Under the pieces are notes generated by a model, which saw only the letters and a program-made list of their open reading frames with translations, did not search any database and had not been told where the DNA came from. A DNA stretch of 64,000 nt from Bacillota bacterium (lineage in GTDB: Bacteria; Bacillota; Sulfobacillia; JAJYWN01): positions 1-64,000 of the forward strand of contig JAJYWN010000063.1 of the NCBI GenBank assembly GCA_021791495.1. Direction: 5' to 3'. Each line of letters opens with the position of its first letter. Positions within the stretch are counted from its first letter, which is position 1. Of this stretch, positions 3,754 to 26,734 are shown in pieces. A program made the position numbers and the translations under genes.

Positions 3754-4599
3754 CTACTTGTTCCGCTTGTCCTGTGTGTCTGGCTTAGCCGCCGCTTCCG
3801 ACGTAGGCTGTGCTCCTGGCGCAGGTTGCCCGTCTAGCTTGGGCTGCGTTTCCGTGAGGTAGCTCTTCGGCGTCGTCCGCCGGAACCGGCTGCACTCCTG
3901 TTCAAGGAACCGGCCTACGGGGCTGTCCTCCACTCCTTCGCGCAGCGGCAGGAGGTTGCCAATCTTCACCCGTATCCCCGCCAGGCTCAGGTCGTCTCGA
4001 GTGATGATGACCAGGGAAATGCCGTTCTCCGCGCACAAGCCCCGTTTGGTCAGGTCATTCGCCCGCCTCCTCCGGAAGCCCTCGCTGCTGGGATAGAGAA
4101 GGGTAGTGCCGTAGTGCTGGTCGCCGTTGAACTCGAAGGCTACCCTCGCTTCATAGTAGAACCGGTCGAATTCCAGCCTCTCACCCGTTAGCGGGTTCGT
4201 CGACTCAGCCACGCGGGCGTTATCTTCAAACTTGTCACTGGGAATCAGGATGGACAGGTCTTCCAGCATCAACTGCTGGGCGTAGTGTTCGGCTCTCTTC
4301 AAACGCTTGATCACCTGATCGAGGAGCGTAACCCAGGATTCGGCACCTTCATGCCTCATGAGGTACTCTCCGCGCCCCAACCTCGTGACCAGCCCGGCAT
4401 CGATCAGCGCCTGCATCTGCCGGATAACAGTCTCTTTCGAGAGGTGGGTCAGCCTGCATATCTCGGCCAAGGTGAACCTGCAGCGAAACTCGCTTCCCTT
4501 GCTCTGCTGGAGGAGCACGGCGTACAAATGCTTGGCCGTAACCGTAAGGCTGCTGGACAGCAGAACGACGTCGGGGATGCTGGTAGAGAACATGTCCAT
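3754..4599 (-). CDS. Winged-helix protein fused to Vsr/PD-(D/E)XK-type nuclease fold, paralogue 1
   Basis: About 281 residues. Residues about 10-95 form a winged helix-turn-helix (LAEICRLTHLSKETVIRQM, then DAGLVTRLGRGEYL as the wing). Residues about 125-215 match the Vsr/homing-endonuclease-like nuclease fold: Asp in LEFDRFY, the central strand VAFEFNGDQHY, then NDLTKRGLCAENGISLVII. A basic, Pro/Gln-rich tail follows. Start: ATG 4599 aligns with the paralogue at 25733-26536; TTG 4620 is an alternative with GGGAGG upstream. The combination suggests a DNA-binding protein that may also cut or recognise DNA. Nuclease activity is inference, because E-x-N replaces the usual E-x-D/K. A 10-bp tandem repeat lies immediately upstream. 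Confidence 0.7.
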   Translation of the reverse strand: MDMFSTSIPDVVLLSSSLTVTAKHLYAVLLQQSKGSEFRCRFTLAEICRLTHLSKETVIRQMQALIDAGLVTRLGRGEYLMRHEGAESWVTLLDQVIKRLKRAEHYAQQLMLEDLSILIPSDKFEDNARVAESTNPLTGERLEFDRFYYEARVAFEFNGDQHYGTTLLYPSSEGFRRRRANDLTKRGLCAENGISLVIITRDDLSLAGIRVKIGNLLPLREGVEDSPVGRFLEQECSRFRRTTPKSYLTETQPKLDGQPAPGAQPTSEAAAKPDTQDKRNK

Positions 4600-4636
4600 T
4601 AAAAACCACGCTCCGATCAAAAGTCCTTCCTCCCAC

Positions 4637-16843: not shown

Positions 16844-16996
16844 GTGCGGAAGCTTGCTGTTGTCTTTGCTATTGCCGCCATCATCCTTTCTTCCTTTCCC
16901 CGTGGTCCGGTCCCCGTCCAGGCTGCCGGGGCCGGCTGGACACACACCTGGACAAAGACCGATCTTGAGGGGTGTTTTGCTTGCGGCGTAAGGTAG
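16844..16996 (+). CDS. Small secreted peptide or truncated exoprotein
   Basis: A 50-residue product starting at GTG 16844, with AGGAGG nine nucleotides upstream. Residues 1-28 are a plausible signal peptide (KLAVVFAIAAIILSSF, then PVQAAGA). The mature part is only about 20 residues, with Trp and two Cys (DLEGCFACGVR). Its end overlaps the start of the stalk-domain gene by 16 nt. It could be a genuine small exported peptide. It could also be the 5' stump of a gene replaced by the tandem stalk-domain cluster. Confidence 0.45.
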   Translation: MRKLAVVFAIAAIILSSFPRGPVPVQAAGAGWTHTWTKTDLEGCFACGVR

Positions 16997-18591
16997 CGCT
17001 TCTGGTCTTGCTCCTAACCCTGCTTACCTGCCTCTCGTCCGTGGCCATCGCCGAAGTGAAGGGGAATGGGCTCTTCCAAGGGTTCCCCATCGTCAACCTC
17101 AAGGTCAATGGCGAGGCGGTCCAAAGCGATGTGCCCGCCATCAACTTCAATGGCCGCACCTTGGTACCGTTCCGGGCCATCGGGGACGCCATTAGGGCCA
17201 AGGTCGGCTGGGACGGTGAAACCCAGACGGCTAGTCTGGACACGCCGGACCTGAACGCGGAAGTGGGGGTTCTACAGGCCCTCTTTGATGCCGTCAAGCC
17301 GAGCACCACAGGCGGCGTGGTGGTGCCGTCGGCCATCAAGGCTGGCGTGAACACGGTCAAGATTGTGGGTTGGGGACTCCCGGTCAAGAACACCGAAATG
17401 GGCGTCATTCTGGTGAGGGAAGGTGCGCTCCAGAGCTCGGATGGAAAGGACCTGCAATCCGGGGTCCTAACGGTGGCGCCAAATGGCGTTCTTCTCCAGG
17501 ATACCGGTTCGCCGGAACGCAGGACCACTCGCTGGGGTGAGCTCTCGAGTGGGTTTTCGGACGTGAACCACTTGTCGATTCTAGGTGACGTCCAGAGGCT
17601 AGGAAAGGTCCATGTGGATGAGTACGGAAGGTTCGCCGGCGAATTCCGATCTGAGTTCCGATATGTCGGCACTCTGCACGTGTGGTTAGTTCCGGTCTGG
17701 GACTGGGCCGGGTTCACCGGCATGCTATGGGACCAACCCAGTCCCACGAAGACGGCCTTCGCAGACTTGGCGACCTTGACCGTCGGTCCCAATCCCCACC
17801 TGGTGGTATGCGGCGGGACATCGTTCTACCGAGTTGCCCCGCCTCCTCTCGTCGTAGACGATGCTTTTACCGGCCTTGCCCTGTGGGCATATGGTCTGGC
17901 ACCTGGAACGCCTGTCATTTTCCGGGTGGACGGAAAGCTCATTGGGCCGCTCGTCAGTCCCCATGGCGGACTCAACCGCTACCCTGAGACAGATCCTGAG
18001 GGACGGCTCTTCCAACTCCAGGGTGAGGATCGCCACATCTTCGGAGTGGAAGACCTGCCCGCTGAACAACTCTTCCGCTGGGCTAAGGATGGATCCTTCG
18101 ATGATAAGGTCGTACCGGTCCCGCTGGGAGAGGCCTTCAATAGCAGGGCCGATGCCGGTGGGCTGGCTCACGCATCCGCGAACTTCCCGGTACACGTATT
18201 AGGCACCGTTGACAAGATGGCCCCGTTCCCAGTGGGGGACCACACCGTAGAAGCGTTTCCCTCCGGTTCAGCCGTGCCCCTTGCGTCTGCCACCTTCGAG
18301 GTCCGTCCCCAATCTCCGATAACCGCAAGCCTCGAACGTCAGGTCGAGTGGCATGCGGATGGCACGCTAACCTACAGGGGTCAGATTCACGTGTCCGGTC
18401 TCTGGCCCGACCGTGTGGCCTCGGTATCGGTAGCAGACCCCCCCGAGCGAATGCCTTTTCCCGATGGGACGCTTACCGTTGGTTTCGTCTTGAAGGACCG
18501 GGTGAAGACCTTTTTTCCCAATTTCACGACGGTGTACCAGGAAGGGAAGGGTGGGGTCCGGGTACTGATAGACCTGCCCGAAGGACCGTAG
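16981..18591 (+). CDS. Secreted stalk-domain (CuAO-N) protein, tandem copy 1
   Basis: About 536 residues. The start is TTG 16981: it aligns with the GTG starts of the two downstream copies and follows GAGGGGTG. A signal peptide (ALLVLLLTLLTCLSSVAIA) is followed by one copper-amine-oxidase-N/stalk domain (FNGRTLVPFRAIGDAIRAKV). A conserved region follows (VKIVGWGLPVKNTEMGV...), then Ig-like or beta-rich segments with APFPVGDHTVEAFPSGSAVP-type sequence. This domain is a wall-associated module and does not imply amine oxidase activity. The next two genes are close paralogues, separated by about 60 nt, with matching leader sequences. Confidence 0.75.
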   Translation: MRRKVALLVLLLTLLTCLSSVAIAEVKGNGLFQGFPIVNLKVNGEAVQSDVPAINFNGRTLVPFRAIGDAIRAKVGWDGETQTASLDTPDLNAEVGVLQALFDAVKPSTTGGVVVPSAIKAGVNTVKIVGWGLPVKNTEMGVILVREGALQSSDGKDLQSGVLTVAPNGVLLQDTGSPERRTTRWGELSSGFSDVNHLSILGDVQRLGKVHVDEYGRFAGEFRSEFRYVGTLHVWLVPVWDWAGFTGMLWDQPSPTKTAFADLATLTVGPNPHLVVCGGTSFYRVAPPPLVVDDAFTGLALWAYGLAPGTPVIFRVDGKLIGPLVSPHGGLNRYPETDPEGRLFQLQGEDRHIFGVEDLPAEQLFRWAKDGSFDDKVVPVPLGEAFNSRADAGGLAHASANFPVHVLGTVDKMAPFPVGDHTVEAFPSGSAVPLASATFEVRPQSPITASLERQVEWHADGTLTYRGQIHVSGLWPDRVASVSVADPPERMPFPDGTLTVGFVLKDRVKTFFPNFTTVYQEGKGGVRVLIDLPEGP

Positions 18592-18651
18592 CCCGCGCTG
18601 CAGTAGCCGCACGTCGCAGCCGGACCCAAATCGTCCTGAGAGGTGTTGAAC

Positions 18652-20187
18652 GTGAAGCGCCAGACAGTTTTCGTGGTGGTTCTCCTCTCCTTGCTGGTGG
18701 GCCTCTCGTCCGTGGCCATCGCGGAGGTAAAAGGAAACGGCCTGTTCCAAGGATTCCCCATCGTCAACCTCGAGGTCAACGGCAAGGCTGTCCAGAGCGA
18801 CGTGCCCGCCATCAACTTCAACGGCCGCACCTTGGTGCCGTTTCGGGCCATCGGGGACGCCATTGGAGCCACCGTCGGTTGGGATGGTGAAACCCAGACG
18901 GCCAGCCTGGACACGCCGGACTTGAACGCGAAAGTGGAGGTTCTTGAGGCCCTCTTTGATGCCGTCAAGCCGAGCACCACAGGCGGCGTGGTGGTGCCGT
19001 CGGTCCTCAAGGCCGGCGTGAATACGGTCAAGATTGTTGGTTGGGGACTCCCGTTCAAGAACACCGAAATGGGCGTCATTCTGGTGAGGGAAGGTTCGCT
19101 TCGGAGCTCGGATGGAAAGGACCTGCCAGCTGGAGCCTTGACGGTGGCCCCAAACGGGGCTCTTCTCCAGGATAGTGGCTTGCCGGAGCAGAGGATCACT
19201 CGTTGGGGCAAGTTTGCGGGTACGGGTGGCACACCAGGAAATGCCCATGTCGATGAGTACGGAAGGTTCGTCGCGGAATTCCAATCCGAATTCCAATGCG
19301 TGGGCACACTGCACGTCTGGTTGGTTCCGGTCTGGGACTGGGCCGGGTTCACGGGCCCGCTGTGGGATCAGCCCTCTCCTGCCAAGACGGCCTACGTCGA
19401 CCTGGCAACCGTGACCGTCGCCACCAGTCCCCATCTCGTGGCAAGCGGTGGGGGCTCATCGGGTCTTAAGCGTTGCGTCGTGGATGATGCCTGCACCTCC
19501 CTCAACCTATGGGCGTATGGGCTAACGCCCGGGATACCTGTCATTTTCCGGGTCGACGGAAAGCTCATTGGCGGTCTCTATTGCGATGCTGAAGCAGGTG
19601 CCAAGAGCTGGCTCTTCAAGCTCCAAGGTGAAGAACGCCGCGTCTTCGGAGTCGAAGATCTGCCCGCTGAACAGCTCTTCCGCTGGGCTAAAGAGGGATC
19701 CTACGATAAGGTCGTACCGGTCCAGCTAGACGAGGCCTTGAATAGCAGGGCCGATGCCAGTGGGCTGGCTCACGCATCCGCGAACTCCCCGGTTAACGTG
19801 ATCGGCACCAACAGCATGTTTGCCCCGTTCCCGGTGGGGGTCCACACTGCAGAAGTGTTTCCTTCCGGTTCAACCGCGCCCCTTACGTCTGCCACCTTCG
19901 AGGTCCGTCCCCAGTCTCCGATAACTGCAAGCCTGGATCGCCAGGTCGAGTGGCATGCCGACGGTCGGCTAACCTACAGGGGAGTGCTGCATGTGACTGG
20001 CCTGTGGCCAGACTGTGACGCCATAGTATCGATAACATCCGGGCAAACACCTTTACCTGACGGCACGCTGACCACCAGTTTTGTTTTCGAGAACATCGAA
20101 AAGACCCGATTTCCCATATCCTGCTGGGTGTCCCAGGAAGGTCGGCGGGGCATTCAGGTCTTGCTGGATCTGCCCGAAGGACCGTAG
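18652..20187 (+). CDS. Secreted stalk-domain (CuAO-N) protein, tandem copy 2
   Basis: About 511 residues, from GTG 18652 with GAGAGG eight nucleotides upstream. Signal peptide, stalk domain (NGRTLVPFRAIGDAIGATV) and C-terminal half match copy 1 closely along the whole length, including FGVEDLPAEQLFRWAK and the SPITASLDRQVEWHADG region. A shorter segment after GRFVAEF and a smaller central insertion account for most of the length difference. Its 5' leader and first roughly 230 nt are almost identical to copy 3, which points to recent duplication or gene conversion. Confidence 0.75.
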   Translation: MKRQTVFVVVLLSLLVGLSSVAIAEVKGNGLFQGFPIVNLEVNGKAVQSDVPAINFNGRTLVPFRAIGDAIGATVGWDGETQTASLDTPDLNAKVEVLEALFDAVKPSTTGGVVVPSVLKAGVNTVKIVGWGLPFKNTEMGVILVREGSLRSSDGKDLPAGALTVAPNGALLQDSGLPEQRITRWGKFAGTGGTPGNAHVDEYGRFVAEFQSEFQCVGTLHVWLVPVWDWAGFTGPLWDQPSPAKTAYVDLATVTVATSPHLVASGGGSSGLKRCVVDDACTSLNLWAYGLTPGIPVIFRVDGKLIGGLYCDAEAGAKSWLFKLQGEERRVFGVEDLPAEQLFRWAKEGSYDKVVPVQLDEALNSRADASGLAHASANSPVNVIGTNSMFAPFPVGVHTAEVFPSGSTAPLTSATFEVRPQSPITASLDRQVEWHADGRLTYRGVLHVTGLWPDCDAIVSITSGQTPLPDGTLTTSFVFENIEKTRFPISCWVSQEGRRGIQVLLDLPEGP

Positions 20188-20247
20188 TCCGTGCCAGAGT
20201 ACCCGTTTGTATCACTTAGGCCCAGACCGTCCTGAGAGGTGTTGAAC

Positions 20248-21627
20248 GTGAAGCGCCAGACAGTTTTCGCGGTGGTTCTCCTCTCCTTGCTTGTCGGCCT
20301 GTCGTCCGTGGCTATCGCGGAGGAAAAAGGAAACGGCCTGTTCCAAGGATTCCCCATCGTCAACCTCAAGGTCAACGGCAAGGCGGTCCAAAGCGACGTC
20401 CCCGCCATCAACTTCAACGGCCGCACCTTGGTGCCGTTCCGGGCCATCGGGGACGCCATTGGAGCCACCGTCGGTTGGGACGGCGAAACCCAGACGGCCA
20501 GCCTGGAAACCCCGGACCTCGAAGCGAAGGTCCAGGTCCTGCAGGCCCTGTTCGACGCGGTCAAACCCAGCGCCATGGGCGGCGCGGTGGTGCCGTCGAC
20601 CGCCCCCGCCGGCCCGGCAACCTTGAAGGTGGTCGGCTGGGGGCTTCCGGTCAAAAACGTGAAGATGGCCGTTACGCTGGTGCGGGAAGGTCTTTTCAAG
20701 AAAGCCGACGGAAGCGATTATCCGCCTGGTCCCATAGACGTTACTCCGAATGCTTTGCTCCAGAAGGCAACCGGCTACGTCTCTCCTGTGTCACGAGTTG
20801 CCTGGCCCTGGGCGCTATTGTCCCGGGAGATCCCGGGGTTCATTAGCGAGCCTTCAGTTCTCGGGGCTGTTGACGTTGATGATCAGGGACGATTCGCCGG
20901 TGAGTTTCGAACCAGTCTGCGCGAAGTCGGCCCGGAATATGTTTGGCTGGTCCCCGTCTGGGAGCCTGGTGACGAGACTTCCGTCAAAACCGCTATCGTT
21001 GACCTGGCGGACTTGACGGTCGGTGTTAGACCGAATCTAGTTATCGGCAGCCTCGGTCGCGTCACGGCCCCACCATGCGTCATTGATGACGGATACACTA
21101 CGCTAGGCTTGACCGTCTATGGTCTGGAACCCGGAACACCAATTCGTTTCACCATTGACTCCGAACCACTCATGGTCCGTGGCAGCAACGGACCGGTTCC
21201 CGCCCGCAACGACGGCACCGTTTTAGCTGGCCCCAAGGGGAAGGCATCAAATCCCTACGTGCTCAGCCCTTTCTCACCGGGCACTCACAAGGTGCAGGTA
21301 TTCCAGGCCGGCGTGGCGACAGCTATCGCTGAGGGCACGTTCGAGGTCCGACCCAGGACGCCTATTACCGTCGTGGCTAGCTGCCAGGTCCAATTGCGGC
21401 CTGACGGTAAAGTGACGTTGAAAGGTGAGGTTAGGGTCTCGGGTTTGTGGCCAGATTGCGAGGTCAGCGTTTGGGGTGAACAGTGGAGGTGGCCGTCTCC
21501 CGACGGCACGCTGACTGTGGCCATCTCGTACGACTACGATAAGTCGATATTCCCCTTGACCGAATGGGTCTCTCAGGAAGGACGTCCGGGCGTCAAACAA
21601 ACGATTGATCTCCCGGTAGGTCCATAG
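20248..21627 (+). CDS. Secreted stalk-domain (CuAO-N) protein, tandem copy 3
   Basis: About 459 residues, from GTG 20248 with the same GAGAGG leader as copy 2. The signal peptide and stalk domain are nearly identical to copy 2. The remainder is divergent: the LFRWAK segment is absent and the C-terminal beta region is shorter, though SPFSPGTHKVQVFQAG and the PITVVASCQVQLRPDGK region are still recognisable. A conserved N-terminus with a diverged C-terminus suggests ongoing diversification of surface proteins. Confidence 0.75.
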   Translation: MKRQTVFAVVLLSLLVGLSSVAIAEEKGNGLFQGFPIVNLKVNGKAVQSDVPAINFNGRTLVPFRAIGDAIGATVGWDGETQTASLETPDLEAKVQVLQALFDAVKPSAMGGAVVPSTAPAGPATLKVVGWGLPVKNVKMAVTLVREGLFKKADGSDYPPGPIDVTPNALLQKATGYVSPVSRVAWPWALLSREIPGFISEPSVLGAVDVDDQGRFAGEFRTSLREVGPEYVWLVPVWEPGDETSVKTAIVDLADLTVGVRPNLVIGSLGRVTAPPCVIDDGYTTLGLTVYGLEPGTPIRFTIDSEPLMVRGSNGPVPARNDGTVLAGPKGKASNPYVLSPFSPGTHKVQVFQAGVATAIAEGTFEVRPRTPITVVASCQVQLRPDGKVTLKGEVRVSGLWPDCEVSVWGEQWRWPSPDGTLTVAISYDYDKSIFPLTEWVSQEGRPGVKQTIDLPVGP

Positions 21628-21687
21628 GAAGTGGCAGCCACCGAGGCCCAGAGTTGACGCCTCGGCAGCCCTGGAGGGAGTAGAGGA

Positions 21688-22548
21688 ATGAGCCGCGGTT
21701 TCCGAAGAGGCGCCTCTGTGATAGGCGCGTTGCTGCTGTTATTGATCCCGTCGGCGGTCCTGGCCAACGTCAACGGGCTGTTCGAAGGATACCCGGTGGT
21801 CAAGGTGCGGGTGAACGGTGTCGAACTCAGCCCCGACGTCCCGGGCATTAACTTCAAGGGGCGGACTCTCGTCCCGGTCAGGGCCATCACGGACGCACTT
21901 GGGGCCACTCTTAGCTGGGACTCGGCCACGTGGACGGCGGATATCCGCAGTTCCGCGGTGGCGTCGGCTGCGGGCGGAGCGGGGGTCTCGGGCGGGGGCG
22001 CGGCCGGTGGTGCGGGTGGCAGCGTAGTTGGCGGGGCGTCCGGTGGCGGCGTGTTGGGTGGCGCAGCCGGCGGATCCTTGGAAGACAGAGTCGCTGCCCT
22101 CGAATCCAAAGTGGCCGACCTGACCACCCGCCTAGACCAGGCCATGGCCACGATCGCCCAGCTTCAAAGCGCCGGCACAAGTGGCTCCTCCTCAGGAACC
22201 ACCACCAGTAGCGCGGGTTCCACCTCCGGGTCGACCTCAGCCCCCACGGGAACCGCGGGAACCGGCACCATCACCACCCCCGTTTTCCCCGGCTTCTTCA
22301 AAGACGTGAGCTACGACAATCCCGCGCTCTTCCTCCAGACCGGTCAGCAGACGAAGGCCACACCCGTCATCTTGAACGCCGCCGCCAGCATCCCGAACAA
22401 GAGCGGCATCGACGGCGTGGCGGTGGAGACTGCTTCGAAGTTTTCTTCTGGAAGTGGAAGGGTTTGGGATGGGGGATGCCAAGAGTTCAAGCAAGGGTTC
22501 AACCGTGAGGTAGCCACAGATTGGCGAGGCTGTGCTTTCCGGACATAA
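21688..22548 (+). pseudogene. Stalk-domain protein truncated by the leader repeat
   Basis: ATG 21688 has GGAGGGAGTAGAGG upstream. The product has a signal peptide (GALLLLLIPSAVLA), a stalk domain (FKGRTLVPVRAITDALGATL), a Gly/Ala/Ser-rich linker, a short coiled coil (SLEDRVAALESKVADLTTRL), a Thr/Ser linker and the start of a further domain (PGFFKDVSYDNPALFLQTG). From residue about 252 the frame runs through dispersed leader repeat copy 4, so the last 35 residues are repeat-encoded. I infer loss of the normal 3' end. A short functional product cannot be excluded. Confidence 0.6.
22441..22489 (+). repeat. Dispersed leader repeat, copy 4
   Basis: TTTTCTTCTGGAAGTGGAAG, then GGTTTGGGAT and GATGCCAAGAGTTCA, matching the copies near 639, 1654 and 10506. 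Unlike those, it lies inside an open frame and supplies the end of a truncated gene. It also sits about 130 nt upstream of the first Panacea gene, where it may have been its leader before the rearrangement. Confidence 0.6.
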
Positions 22549-22622: not shown

Positions 22623-23117
22623 ATGACTCAGGTAAGTTACAGCGACATCGCGGACTACTTCATAGCCTTGTCCAACACCACCGAGAACCTGATCACGAAT
22701 CTCAAACTCCAGAAGCTGGTCTACTACACCCAGGCATGGCATCTGGCCATGCATGACAAGCCTGTCTTCCCCGAGTATTTTGAGGCTTGGGTACACGGTC
22801 CCGTTCTGCTCCCGCTCTATAACCAGTACAGGGGTCTCAAGTGGCATCCATTGGAACGAGATGACCTGACCGAAGGCAGTATTACGAAGCTGCGGGACAG
22901 GTTCGGACCGGAGCTTTGCTCACTAATCGATCAGGTGGTTGACCATTACTTTGGAATGACAGCCTACCAAATGGAACTCCAGGTTCATTCGGAGGAACCT
23001 TGGAGGCGGGCCCGCTTAGGTCTGAACGCGGACGAACCTTCCCACAACATCATTCAAAATGAATGGATGCGGGATTACTACCGCCGATTCTTGATAGATG
23101 AGCCGGAAGAGGATTAG
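22623..23117 (+). CDS. Panacea-domain (SocA/DUF4065-type) antitoxin-like protein 1
   Basis: A 164-residue protein with the Panacea fold, from ATG 22623 preceded by AAAGGGGG. Hallmarks are LKLQKLVYYTQAWHLAM near residue 30, EYFEAWVHGPVLLPLYNQY near 55, and a helical C-terminus. Panacea domains act as antitoxins that pair with varied toxins, including small membrane or nucleotide-acting partners. The downstream frame, whose start overlaps the end of this gene, is the expected partner position but is broken. Base composition is lower in GC than the flanking envelope genes, consistent with an acquired island. Confidence 0.8.
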   Translation: MTQVSYSDIADYFIALSNTTENLITNLKLQKLVYYTQAWHLAMHDKPVFPEYFEAWVHGPVLLPLYNQYRGLKWHPLERDDLTEGSITKLRDRFGPELCSLIDQVVDHYFGMTAYQMELQVHSEEPWRRARLGLNADEPSHNIIQNEWMRDYYRRFLIDEPEED

Positions 23118-23468
23118 CCCCCCGAATGACTTGAGAAAGGTCGGCGCCACAAAGGACCACATTGAGGTTTTTCCGGTTCTGAACGAACTGGTGAAGTTCT
23201 CATTCAAGTACCTTGATCTCGGTCGGGATTCTTCAAGGTCAACTTACTCAAATCCGAATACGGGCATGCGCTCAGGAGTCACGTGGTTAACTGGGAGGAC
23301 ACTACCGAGACTGGTTTTGGTATCCCAAACGAAGAGCAGCTGGTGGAGCAGCCGTGGCAGTTCCCGTTAACGTCTAACCAACACGGGCGAGTCATCGGTT
23401 TCTTCATCGGAAACGTGTTCTATGTCGTTTGGTTGGATCCGGATCACAGGCTATACCAGTCTGCGTGA
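23098..23468 (+). pseudogene. Frameshifted partner gene of Panacea protein 1
   Basis: Frame one, from 23098, encodes a sequence with NDLRKVGATKDHIEVFPVLN and ELVKFSFKYLDLGRD. Frame two, ending at 23468, continues with EYGHALRSHVVNWEDTTETG and HGRVIGFFIGNVFYVVWLDP, then DHRLY. These read as two ends of one protein. They are split by a frame change near 23225, and the middle appears too short, so there is probably also a small internal deletion. The position right after a Panacea gene suggests the cognate toxin or effector, now inactive. I cannot name the family with certainty. Confidence 0.6.
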
Positions 23469-23505
23469 GAGCATTTGATGGACCGAGTGAAAGGGGAGGG
23501 GAGAA

Positions 23506-23949
23506 ATGGCGACCGTATTCGACGTTGCCAAGTATATTCTCCAGAAGACCGGCCCCTTGGCAACCATGAAACTGCAGAAACTTGTCTACTATGCTCAGGC
23601 ATGGTCCACGGTCTGGGATGATCCACCTGACGCGCCACTTTTCGAGGAACCCGTGCAGGCGTGGGCCTTTGGTCCCGTAGTCGCTGTGCTATTCGAGGCA
23701 CATAAGGGCCACTATGCCGTCAATGCTGACTTCTTCAATCAAGGGGATGTCCCACGTTTGTCGCCTGCTCAAAAGGCCACAATCGACGCCGTTCTTGAGT
23801 TCTACGGTGGTCGGACTGCCCAATGGCTGACCAACCTGACCCACAGTGAAGCCCCCTGGATTCTTGCGCGGAAGGGCGTCCCAGAGGGTGAACGCGGGAG
23901 CGCTGAAATCACTCTCGAAAGCATGTCTCTGTACTATGCTTGCCTCTGA
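23506..23949 (+). CDS. Panacea-domain (SocA/DUF4065-type) antitoxin-like protein 2
   Basis: A 147-residue protein from ATG 23506, with GGGGAGGGGAG just upstream. It shows FDVAKYILQKTGPLATMKLQ and KLVYYAQAWSTVWDD, then PVQAWAFGPVVAVLFEAHKG and NLTHSEAPWILARKG, all typical of the SocA-like branch. It is diverged from the Panacea gene 400 nt upstream, so this is not a recent tandem duplication. No partner gene follows before the actin-like gene. It may be an orphan antitoxin, or act on the neighbouring broken system. Confidence 0.8.
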   Translation: MATVFDVAKYILQKTGPLATMKLQKLVYYAQAWSTVWDDPPDAPLFEEPVQAWAFGPVVAVLFEAHKGHYAVNADFFNQGDVPRLSPAQKATIDAVLEFYGGRTAQWLTNLTHSEAPWILARKGVPEGERGSAEITLESMSLYYACL

Positions 23950-24103
23950 GGAGACTAGACGTCCGTATGGTCAGGTAGGCGCTGCCAACGGTGTCTAACA
24001 CGCCAAAGTGCGTTAACCCTCAGCCCTCACATTTCAGCCCGGCCCCGCCGATATAAGAGATGAGCACGAATCATCTCACGGAACAATGGGGGAGGGCGCA
24101 CTC

Positions 24104-25168
24104 ATGGTGGAAGTCGGAGTGGACCTTGGGTATGGGTTTGTCAAGGCGACGGACGGGCGCGAGGGGTTCATGTTCCCCAGCGTGGTCGGCGCCGGCACAT
24201 CGGTGGGTGTGCTGCGGCTGAAGGACGTGCTGGCCGACCCCACCGACGATATGCGGGTCAGCGTTGACGGGCAGCTCTACTACGTCGGCAATTACGCCAT
24301 CCGGCGGTCACCGCGCGCGTTTCGCGGCATGTCGGTGAAGAGGGGTGAGGGGAACGCCTTGAAGGTGCTCTTCCTGGCCGCCCTGAGCCAGTTCGCCAGG
24401 GAGCCGGTGACCAGTTTCTCCGTGGTGACGGGGCTGCCGCCGGGGAGGATGGGACAGAGCGAGGAGCTGGTCCGCGCCTTGAAAGGCGAGCACCGCATGG
24501 TGCGGCATTCGGCGGACGAGAACCCGGCGCTGTCGCTGAAGGTGGAAGATGTGGCCGTCGTACCGCAGCCGGTCGGGGCGTATTGGGCCGAAGTCCTTGA
24601 CGGGGACGGGCAGGTACGGCAGGATTCGCCGTTGCTGCGCGGACGCGTGGGGGTCGTGGACATCGGGTATAAGACGTCCGACCTTGTGGTGATGGAAGAT
24701 ACGGAATATGTGCCGGAGCGCAGCACCACGGTGCCGGTGGGCGTGTCGTCGGCCTACGCCGAGATAGCGGAGAAGCTGGCGGCCAAGTACGGGGTGGAGA
24801 AGGAAACCTACGCGCTGGACGGCGCCGTGATCACGGGGAAGATGGTGGTCGCGGGGCAGGTGGCCGATATTTCGGAGGTGCGGGAGCCGGCCTTCGCGGG
24901 GCTGGCCACCAAGGTCGTGGCCGAGGTTTTGTCGACTTGGCAGATGTCGGAGTTCGCCAGTCTGCTGCTGGTGGGCGGCGGGGCCGTGGCCCTTGGGAAG
25001 TACCTGCTACCGCACCTGCCCGTCGCGACGGTGGTCGACGATCCGGTGACGGCCAATAGCCGAGGGTTCTGGGCTTGGGCGCACCGGTTGGGCGCGCGGG
25101 CGGCGACTGGGGCGGGATCGGTGGCGGCTGGGGCGGCGACGGGGCGGCGCAGCAGCGATGCGGCGTAA
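24104..25168 (+). CDS. ParM/StbA-like actin-like ATPase
   Basis: A 354-residue actin-fold protein. ATG 24104 is preferred over 24086 because GGGGGAGG lies between them at ribosome-binding distance. Phosphate-1 motif: VGVDLGYGFVKA near the N-terminus. Phosphate-2 motif: VGVVDIGYKTSDLVV near residue 190. Adenosine motif: LLLVGGGAVALG near residue 290. ParM-type proteins polymerise into filaments that move DNA, usually plasmids. No adjacent small DNA-binding ParR gene is seen. Instead the stop overlaps the start of a bactofilin gene by 11 nt. Role unknown: a chromosomal cytoskeletal element or a relic of an integrated replicon. Confidence 0.8.
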   Translation: MVEVGVDLGYGFVKATDGREGFMFPSVVGAGTSVGVLRLKDVLADPTDDMRVSVDGQLYYVGNYAIRRSPRAFRGMSVKRGEGNALKVLFLAALSQFAREPVTSFSVVTGLPPGRMGQSEELVRALKGEHRMVRHSADENPALSLKVEDVAVVPQPVGAYWAEVLDGDGQVRQDSPLLRGRVGVVDIGYKTSDLVVMEDTEYVPERSTTVPVGVSSAYAEIAEKLAAKYGVEKETYALDGAVITGKMVVAGQVADISEVREPAFAGLATKVVAEVLSTWQMSEFASLLLVGGGAVALGKYLLPHLPVATVVDDPVTANSRGFWAWAHRLGARAATGAGSVAAGAATGRRSSDAA

Positions 25169-25736
25169 GGTAGCGGGAGCGACCGGGGTCGGCGCGACTG
25201 CCAGGGCCGCCAGGTCTAATGGGTCTGCCGGGCCGCTGGCCGTGGTCGACGGGGAATTGCAGGGAGATTTCGAGGGGGGCAGGGGCGGCCTGGTCATAGT
25301 CGGCCCGCACGGCAAGTGCGCGGGGACGTTGAAGGCCGCCCGCCTCCGTATCGAGGGGGAGGTCCGCGGCGCCGTCGATGTCGAGACGGTAATCGAAGTC
25401 CTGCCACAGGGCCGGCTGACTGCCCGCGTCGAGCGGGGGCGGTTGGCGACGTCGCCGGGGGCGGTGGTCGACCTTCTTGAGGCGCCCAATGTGACTGCTA
25501 CGGTAGCTGCGCCTGCTGTGGCTACGGCCCCCACGTTCGCGACCAAGGCGACCTCAGCCTCCCCGCCCTCTGCCAAGATGACCGCTGCCCTGGCTACTGC
25601 GGCGCCCTCGACTGCCGTCAAGGCGGCCGCAGCCCCGGCGGCCCCCTCAACCCCAGTGACCGTCGCTGCAACCGCCACCCCCACGGAAACCAGGCGCAAA
25701 GTGGCTTTCAAGGGCGGTTATCAGGCCTGGCCCTAA
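25158..25736 (+). CDS. Bactofilin-like polymer-forming protein
   Basis: A 192-residue protein whose central region (about 28-105) is a bactofilin-type beta-helix: VVDGELQGDFEGG, GLVIVGPHGKCAGTLKAARL, RIEGEVRGAVDVETVIEVLP and QGRLTARVERGRLATSPGAV. The tail (about 115-185) is Ala/Thr/Pro-rich and probably disordered. Bactofilins self-assemble without nucleotide and scaffold envelope enzymes or DNA-segregation proteins. ATG 25158 overlaps the actin-like gene, implying translational coupling. The stop overlaps the convergent gene by 4 nt. Confidence 0.75.
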   Translation: MRRKVAGATGVGATARAARSNGSAGPLAVVDGELQGDFEGGRGGLVIVGPHGKCAGTLKAARLRIEGEVRGAVDVETVIEVLPQGRLTARVERGRLATSPGAVVDLLEAPNVTATVAAPAVATAPTFATKATSASPPSAKMTAALATAAPSTAVKAAAAPAAPSTPVTVAATATPTETRRKVAFKGGYQAWP

Positions 25737-26536
25737 GCCTTACCCTGCCCCTCCTCATTCTGCTGGCGTTGCTTCGCCCGCTCCTCCCGTTTCCGCTGGT
25801 CCCGCTCAGCCATCGAGTTGCGGTAAGCCTTGCACTCCTGTTCCAGGTATTTCACGACTGGATTCCCCTCGATGCCTGGCCGCAACGGCAGCAGGTTCCC
25901 GATCTTCTTCAATATCCCCTCGACGCTCAAGTCCTCGCGGTTCACCGTCACCAGCTTGATGCCGTTCTCGTCGCAAAGCCCGCGTTTGATGAGGTCCAAA
26001 GCCCGCCGCTTGCGAGCCTCCTCGCTGTTAGGGTACTTCGAGGTCGGGGCGTAGTGCTGCGCCCCCTGGAACTCGAAGGCCACGCCATCAAGGTAAAGAC
26101 GGTCGAACTCCAATATCTGACCGGTCAACGGATTGGTCATGAAGCCCAGGCGCGCCCCGTCCTGGAACCGCTCACTATCCACGCAGGCCGAGAGCAGCTC
26201 CCGCATCAGTTGCTCGCCTCGGTAGGTCGCGGCCTCAAGGCGGAGGACGACCTGGGCGCGCAGGCTGACCCACGCCGCCGCCGACTCGTCCTTGACCCGG
26301 TAACGGGAATTGCCGAGGGGGGTGATGAGGCCGGCCTGGGTCAGGAGTTCCAGGTTCTTGCGCACTGTGTCTCTCGACAGATGAGTAAGCTTGCAGAGCT
26401 GCTGTATCGTCAAAGTGCAGACACCGCCGCTACCTTTACTTTTCTGGAGAAGGGCCAAGTAGAGGATCTTGCCTAAGGCGGGAAGGTCACCGGAGAGGAG
26501 AACTACGTCGGGAATGCTGGTGGAGAATTGGTCCAC
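25733..26536 (-). CDS. Winged-helix protein fused to Vsr/PD-(D/E)XK-type nuclease fold, paralogue 2
   Basis: About 267 residues and clearly paralogous to the 3754-4599 gene, sharing FSTSIPDVVLLS at the start. Winged helix: IQQLCKLTHLSRDTVRKNLE, then LITPLGNSRYRVKD. Nuclease-like fold: LEFDRLYLDGVAFEFQGAQHY, then DLIKRGLCDENGIKLVTVN. The C-terminus is a Lys/Arg/Gln-rich helix. GTG 26536 follows GGAGGTG at ideal spacing; an ATG at 26551 overlaps that site and is less likely. Whether E-x-Q supports catalysis is uncertain. A paired hairpin element lies 200-480 bp upstream of the start. Confidence 0.7.
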   Translation of the reverse strand: MDQFSTSIPDVVLLSGDLPALGKILYLALLQKSKGSGGVCTLTIQQLCKLTHLSRDTVRKNLELLTQAGLITPLGNSRYRVKDESAAAWVSLRAQVVLRLEAATYRGEQLMRELLSACVDSERFQDGARLGFMTNPLTGQILEFDRLYLDGVAFEFQGAQHYAPTSKYPNSEEARKRRALDLIKRGLCDENGIKLVTVNREDLSVEGILKKIGNLLPLRPGIEGNPVVKYLEQECKAYRNSMAERDQRKREERAKQRQQNEEGQGKA

Positions 26537-26734
26537 GGTTGACACCTCCATAAGTCAGGCCGATGGGCCGGGCCTGCAGGCTGTCGGGTTCAGGTGGGTA
26601 TGGGTAAATCCTTCTACTGGAAACTCCCAACGCGAAATAATTTTTGCGACTGGACCTTCAAGGCGGGAGGCCGACAGTCGGGAAGGTCGCTGACGGACGG
26701 TGTTGACGGGTGTTACTGATGGCGTTGCCCGGAG

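Follow-up and report, generated by a model that had tools for sequence, protein, structure and literature searches.

An actin-like ATPase of the ParM clade and a bactofilin are encoded side by side far more often than chance would allow, across many families and two phyla. We analyzed one such pair within a 64,000-nucleotide stretch of DNA from a Bacillota bacterium (contig JAJYWN010000063.1, positions 1 to 64,000; hereafter the window) and compared it with loci from other genomes. From these sequence comparisons, we propose that the actin-like protein and its dedicated bactofilin constitute a single chromosomal cytoskeletal module, with the bactofilin acting as a peptide-docking adaptor, and we assign this reading a probability of roughly 0.5. 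The actin-bactofilin module is real, conserved, and apparently undescribed: a search for papers pairing bactofilin with ParM or StbA, in a literature set of incomplete coverage that did not extend to bioRxiv preprints, found none describing this pair. Actin-like filaments and bactofilins have so far been studied as separate cytoskeletons, and their conserved pairing offers a concrete, testable link between them. It also suggests a new way of redirecting a ParM motor and could explain how certain chromosomal ParMs act without ParR, a question left open by a 2025 paper that noted such cassettes (PMC12270681). Named host strains are Aquisalimonas lutea CECT 8326, Halorhodospira abdelmalekii DSM 2110, and Tepidanaerobacter sp. 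GT38.

The gene pair and its chromosomal setting

The 11-nt overlap between the actin-like and bactofilin frames reported in the first-pass annotation proved exact (Table 1), and its view that two polymer systems are unusually coupled on a chromosome was borne out; the pair recurs in other genomes. The ParM-like protein matched the Pfam families ALP_N (PF17989, E = 8.6e-32) and MreB-like_C (PF21522, E = 8.4e-20), and its GVDLGYG, DIGYKTSD, and GGG motifs are conserved among 23 aligned orthologues. A profile of these orthologues matched pCBH ParM, Dh-cParM1, pSK41 ParM, and CorM in the PDB; the AlphaFold model (pLDDT 88.8) had pCBH ParM and Dh-cParM1 as its nearest PDB folds, with CorM also near. 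The genome that contains the window (4.2 Mb, 81 contigs) encodes one such ParM, hereafter type I, and two bactofilins.

The downstream gene product was assigned to the bactofilins by Pfam (PF04519, E = 5.4e-12; 46.3 bits against a cut-off of 27.9), and a profile of the partner bactofilins matched the Thermus (E = 3e-15) and Caulobacter (E = 6e-15) structures in the PDB. In the AlphaFold model, the core is all-beta and mostly above pLDDT 90, and both tails are below 70. A Foldseek search with this model returned no significant match to known bactofilins, and sequence is thus the basis of the family assignment. The N-terminal residues of several relatives are MFGWRR, MFGRTMRRK, or MGLFGK, which resemble the published MFSKKKK-like membrane-targeting motif; the window's bactofilin is divergent, starting with MRRKVAG and lacking the F/W-plus-basic start of these relatives.

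Table 1. Features of the actin-bactofilin gene pair (coordinates in the window)
Feature	Position	Strand	Basis
Likely ribosome-binding site GGGGAGGG of the ParM-like gene	24089..24096	+	Sequence
ParM-clade actin-like ATPase (type I), 354 aa	24104..25168	+	Pfam ALP_N and MreB-like_C, motifs, AlphaFold
ParM-like ORF, start and stop	ATG at 24104; TAA at 25166-25168	+	Sequence
Overlap of the ParM-like and bactofilin frames, 11 nt	25158..25168	+	ORF coordinates
Partner bactofilin, 192 aa, ATG at 25158	25158..25736	+	Pfam Bactofilin PF04519
Bactofilin core, residues 27-116, predicted beta strands	25236..25505	+	pLDDT mostly >90
Ala/Pro/Thr-rich bactofilin tail, residues 117-183, predicted disordered	25506..25706	+	pLDDT 50-60
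Bactofilin tail motif F-K-G-G-Y, residues 184-188	25707..25721	+	Alignment with relatives, counts

The window is chromosomal, with transaldolase, prfA, prmC, tsaC/sua5, and rpiB genes downstream; four of these (prfA, prmC, tsaC, and rpiB) speak against carriage on a low-copy replicon. The first-pass annotation had pointed out adjoining Panacea genes as a hint of plasmid-like origin. The genes are real (two, PF13274), but they are local to the window and not kept beside the pair elsewhere. Together with the chromosomal genes in the window, a best identity to plasmid ParMs of 29%, compared with 55% for chromosomal relatives, and a single viral match at 28%, this led us to reject a plasmid origin.

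Several minor features of the window were also recorded. The two Panacea (SocA-like) genes (22623-23949) flank a broken-looking frame at 23098-23468, split over two frames, which is perhaps a decayed partner gene; the ORF pieces between them had no Pfam match. Upstream, at 16972-22548, tandem paralogues with near-identical starts run into a gene whose product has a copper amine oxidase N-terminal domain. A winged-helix gene on the reverse strand (25733-26551) is convergent with the bactofilin gene and overlaps its 3′ end by 4 nt; its product and that of a related reverse-strand gene (3754-4620) have a common FSTSIPDVVLLS start.

Conservation of the pair across genomes

Conserved adjacency elsewhere, which the first-pass annotation had named as the check on its idea and whose absence was part of its refuting condition, was found in each of three surveys, of genomes that are mostly metagenome assemblies. 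In a class sample of 101 genomes, a ParM match was present in 36 and a type I ParM, defined as a close orthologue of the window's ParM (at least 43% identity), in 13, counting the window's genome. A bactofilin was the direct same-strand downstream neighbor in 12 of these 13 genomes (the exception being G081); the rough chance of this is ~1e-33 on the incorrect assumption that genomes are independent. Nearly all second bactofilins in the class are ParM neighbors, and other genomes mostly have one ordinary bactofilin. Start-to-stop distances between the two genes are mostly small or overlapping.

An alignment-based scan of 84,980 species genomes yielded 79 loci. Among the 39 type I ParMs in the resulting tree, from which count we left out ten very long-branched rows drawn beside type I, a bactofilin lies downstream in 28, directly upstream in 5, and nowhere nearby in 6. 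The phylum sample, an even draw of 399 genomes, is a partial replication because its loci mix species seen before with new ones: all 13 recovered type I loci were paired with a bactofilin (12 with the terminal motif described below), compared with none of the other loci listed. Among the new loci are L208, L210, L212, L217, and L218, each with the motif.

The linkage holds down to ~40% ParM identity, whereas every other neighbor turns over; all-against-all clustering of flanking ORFs from 60 loci identified the bactofilin as the sole neighbor conserved across lineages. No ParR-like gene was found beside ParM among these flanking ORFs; ParR is poorly conserved, and an unlinked ParR may therefore exist. 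Likewise, no direct-repeat family resembling parC iterons was detected at 23940-24120 of the window, and none was convincing upstream of seven relatives. The six type I ParMs without a bactofilin nearby indicate that ParM can persist without this partner. They retain type-I-specific residues, and because of this a search for co-variation of ParM residues with partner presence gave no signal.

The five type I ParMs with an upstream bactofilin belong to halophilic Gammaproteobacteria (Aquisalimonas, Halorhodospira, and relatives). In a midpoint-rooted tree, gammaproteobacterial type I ParMs nest within the Bacillota clade, which suggests horizontal transfer; type I ParM has apparently passed from Bacillota to halophilic Ectothiorhodospiraceae (L062, L065-L067, L073, and L199). 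At these loci the partner bactofilin lies upstream of ParM and mostly ends RRW[R/S].

When very long rows, the window's included, were removed, the Bacillota partners separated with strong support from the class's ordinary bactofilins (SH-aLRT 99.5). Support was only 51 with all rows kept; in that tree the window's own bactofilin falls on the ParM-linked side with a very long branch and weak support, so its placement is weak. A single origin of the gammaproteobacterial and Bacillota partners was not rejected (AU p = 0.87) and does not appear in the free tree.

Two loci may represent separate pairings. At L052:3051-4584 (G036), near a contig end, the gene after a distant ParM (32% identity) encodes a bactofilin whose last residues, GGGLFYTY, resemble the tail ends of the other partners; at L115, a bactofilin is paired with a type II ParM. 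A third locus, L054:103-3597 (G004), carries three tandem ParM paralogues with no bactofilin nearby.

A terminal peptide on the partner bactofilins

After the core, partner bactofilins carry a variable tail of 45 to 173 residues rich in disorder-promoting residues (81% in the window's protein), and in most Bacillota partners this disordered tail ends F-x-x-S-[F/Y]. Bactofilin tails have been called poorly conserved (PMC12448750), and a conserved terminal peptide is for that reason of interest. In its strict C-terminal form, F followed by any three residues and F/Y/I/V/L, the motif was present in 23 of 31 partners and in 0 of 47 other bactofilins; allowing up to six extra residues at the end, the counts were 26/31 and 0/47. 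Fisher's test on this contrast gave p = 2e-13, with kinship ignored and the pattern taken from the partners before counting. Among 13 divergent partners, F occupies position −5 in all 13, an aromatic residue position −1 in 12, and S position −2 in 11, and none of 5,000 within-tail shuffles matched this pattern; the 13 were picked among carriers of the strict form, which makes the shuffle test partly circular with respect to the F at −5, though the S at −2 is unaffected. The window's counterpart, FKGGY, is followed by QAWP and so stands four residues before the C terminus. Gammaproteobacterial partners end RRW[R/S] instead (one ends TTWGRR), and the second bactofilins of the same genomes lack this ending.

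In G025, a complete genome, the frame of the partner bactofilin (L036:7431-8033, reverse strand) ends without the motif. Reading the same DNA in the +1 frame gives QTIVFRGYMRTKRR, and a frameshift in this tail, whether genuine or a sequencing error, is therefore probable.

Proposed module, precedents, and alternatives

Because the pair recurs in two phyla and most of its bactofilins carry a common terminal peptide, the two filament systems are probably parts of one machine. In the module that we propose, the actin-like protein would form nucleotide-dependent filaments, and the putative beta-helical core of the bactofilin would polymerize without nucleotide. In most relatives, the bactofilin N terminus would probably tether this polymer to the membrane. 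The long disordered tail would display the terminal peptide, namely F-x-x-S-[F/Y], with FKGGY as the window's version and RRW[R/S] as that of gammaproteobacteria, and the peptide would dock on the filament of the actin-like protein or at the filament end. The bactofilin would thus substitute for ParR as a multivalent platform, capturing or nucleating filaments on the membrane rather than on DNA. Such an adaptor fits the retention of the pair through deep divergence, the reversed gene order in the other phylum, and the placement of the peptide on a flexible tail. ParM probably binds the bactofilin directly, and the odds that it does so via the terminal peptide seem slightly better than even. 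The fullest version, which we hold tentatively and with less confidence than the module itself, is that membrane-bound bactofilin polymers, having taken over from ParR, capture ATP-driven actin-like filaments through a conserved C-terminal peptide. On this view, a motor for plasmid segregation would have been turned into a membrane-anchored device for positioning in Bacillota and would have passed horizontally to halophilic gammaproteobacteria, and the pair would represent an undescribed class of bacterial cytoskeletal machine.

In plasmid R1, the C-terminal tail of ParR binds ParM (PDB 4a62). The pair resembles plasmid ParMRC systems (R1, pSK41, and pCBH) in combining a ParM-clade ATPase with a small cotranscribed partner bearing a short peptide at the end of its tail, but its partner is a bactofilin rather than the DNA-binding ParR, no parC iterons were found, and it is chromosomal and conserved across families. 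The chromosomal ParMs Dh-cParM1, which is among the nearest solved structures, and Cb-cParM are functional (PMC12270681), and in this respect the pair is like chromosomal cParMR; the cassettes in that paper are defined mainly by a ParR-like gene, and bactofilin is absent from it. FcmB/FcmC and CorM (PDB 9rmi) likewise join a chromosomal ParM-clade actin to an operon partner. In filamentous cyanobacteria, the ParM-type actin FcmB sets cell shape with no obvious nucleoid defect and needs FcmC, treated there as the counterpart of ParR and not as a bactofilin, for membrane localization (PMC12645912). The ParM lineage also differs: the window's protein scored 33.4 bits (E = 2e-8) against NCBIfam FcmB, below the cut-off of 300. 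On the bactofilin side, BacA-LmdC pairs a bactofilin with an M23 peptidase in a similarly overlapping, co-conserved operon (PMC10945521), whereas here the partner is an actin-like ATPase and M23 genes accompany the pair in some lineages only. The tail of Myxococcus BacP, as cited in PMC12448750, binds the client PadC, possibly via a KKKVVVKK motif; the tail serves there as a client dock, but PadC is not an actin and the tail motif is unrelated.

The likeliest use of the proposed module would be in positioning cell wall remodeling by M23 peptidases and in cell shape. M23 genes cluster with the pair at L066, L081, and L083; in the window, no M23 gene adjoins it, the neighbors being Panacea and HTH genes. 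On the FcmB/FcmC precedent and the M23 links, organization of the wall or shape appears likelier than DNA partition, and taken by itself a wall or shape function has odds just short of even. The first-pass suggestion of a novel positioning device stands in part: the conserved pair is consistent with positioning or scaffolding, and segregation is a possible but disfavored role.

The main rival, which we consider unlikely, is positioning of the chromosome or its origin, with ParM filaments pushing or holding the origin region while the bactofilin, also in contact with ParB/ParA, serves as a polar anchor, as in Myxococcus BacNOP-PadC. It ranks first because a related lineage, type II ParM, sits between Noc-like ParB and soj-spo0J in three order-mates (L045-L047 in G002, G001, and G003; see also L058:214-3094). 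In addition, the ordinary bactofilins of the window's genome (on another contig) and of G025 lie within ~10 kb of soj-spo0J, and the BacP-PadC case cited above indicates that a bactofilin tail can bind a client. Type I pairs, however, were not near noc or soj at the loci searched, and the ParABS set of the window's genome is intact. Moreover, pair positions in complete genomes are scattered (~54 kb from dnaA in G025, far from the record ends in others), and iterons and a conserved ParR-like gene are lacking. The window's genome does have a noc-soj-spo0J cluster, but its noc-soj gap contains no ParM.

Hitch-hiking is less probable still. Under it, the genes would be coinherited without interaction and the terminal peptide would serve another partner, such as a protease, the membrane, or a wall enzyme. 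Some ParMs do live without the partner, and the Bacillota partners form one group, so that many cases may derive from a single linkage event. Set against this are the persistence of the linkage at ParM identities at which other neighbors have turned over, the reversed gene order in gammaproteobacteria, and the possible separate pairings at L052, with a distant ParM, and L115, with a type II ParM. A captured ParMRC plasmid cassette, kept as a maintenance relic after ParR was lost or replaced, would account for the plasmid-clade fold and the adjoining antitoxin-like Panacea genes but is very improbable given the chromosomal setting, the absence of parC iterons, the poor plasmid and viral matches, the lack of conservation of Panacea beside the pair, and the conservation of ATPase motifs and bactofilin across families and of the pairing across phyla.

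As a further hint of an association among ParM, bactofilin, and M23 peptidases, a type II ParM lies beside a divergently oriented M23-bactofilin cluster at L103 and L104 (the same loci as G088 and G096).
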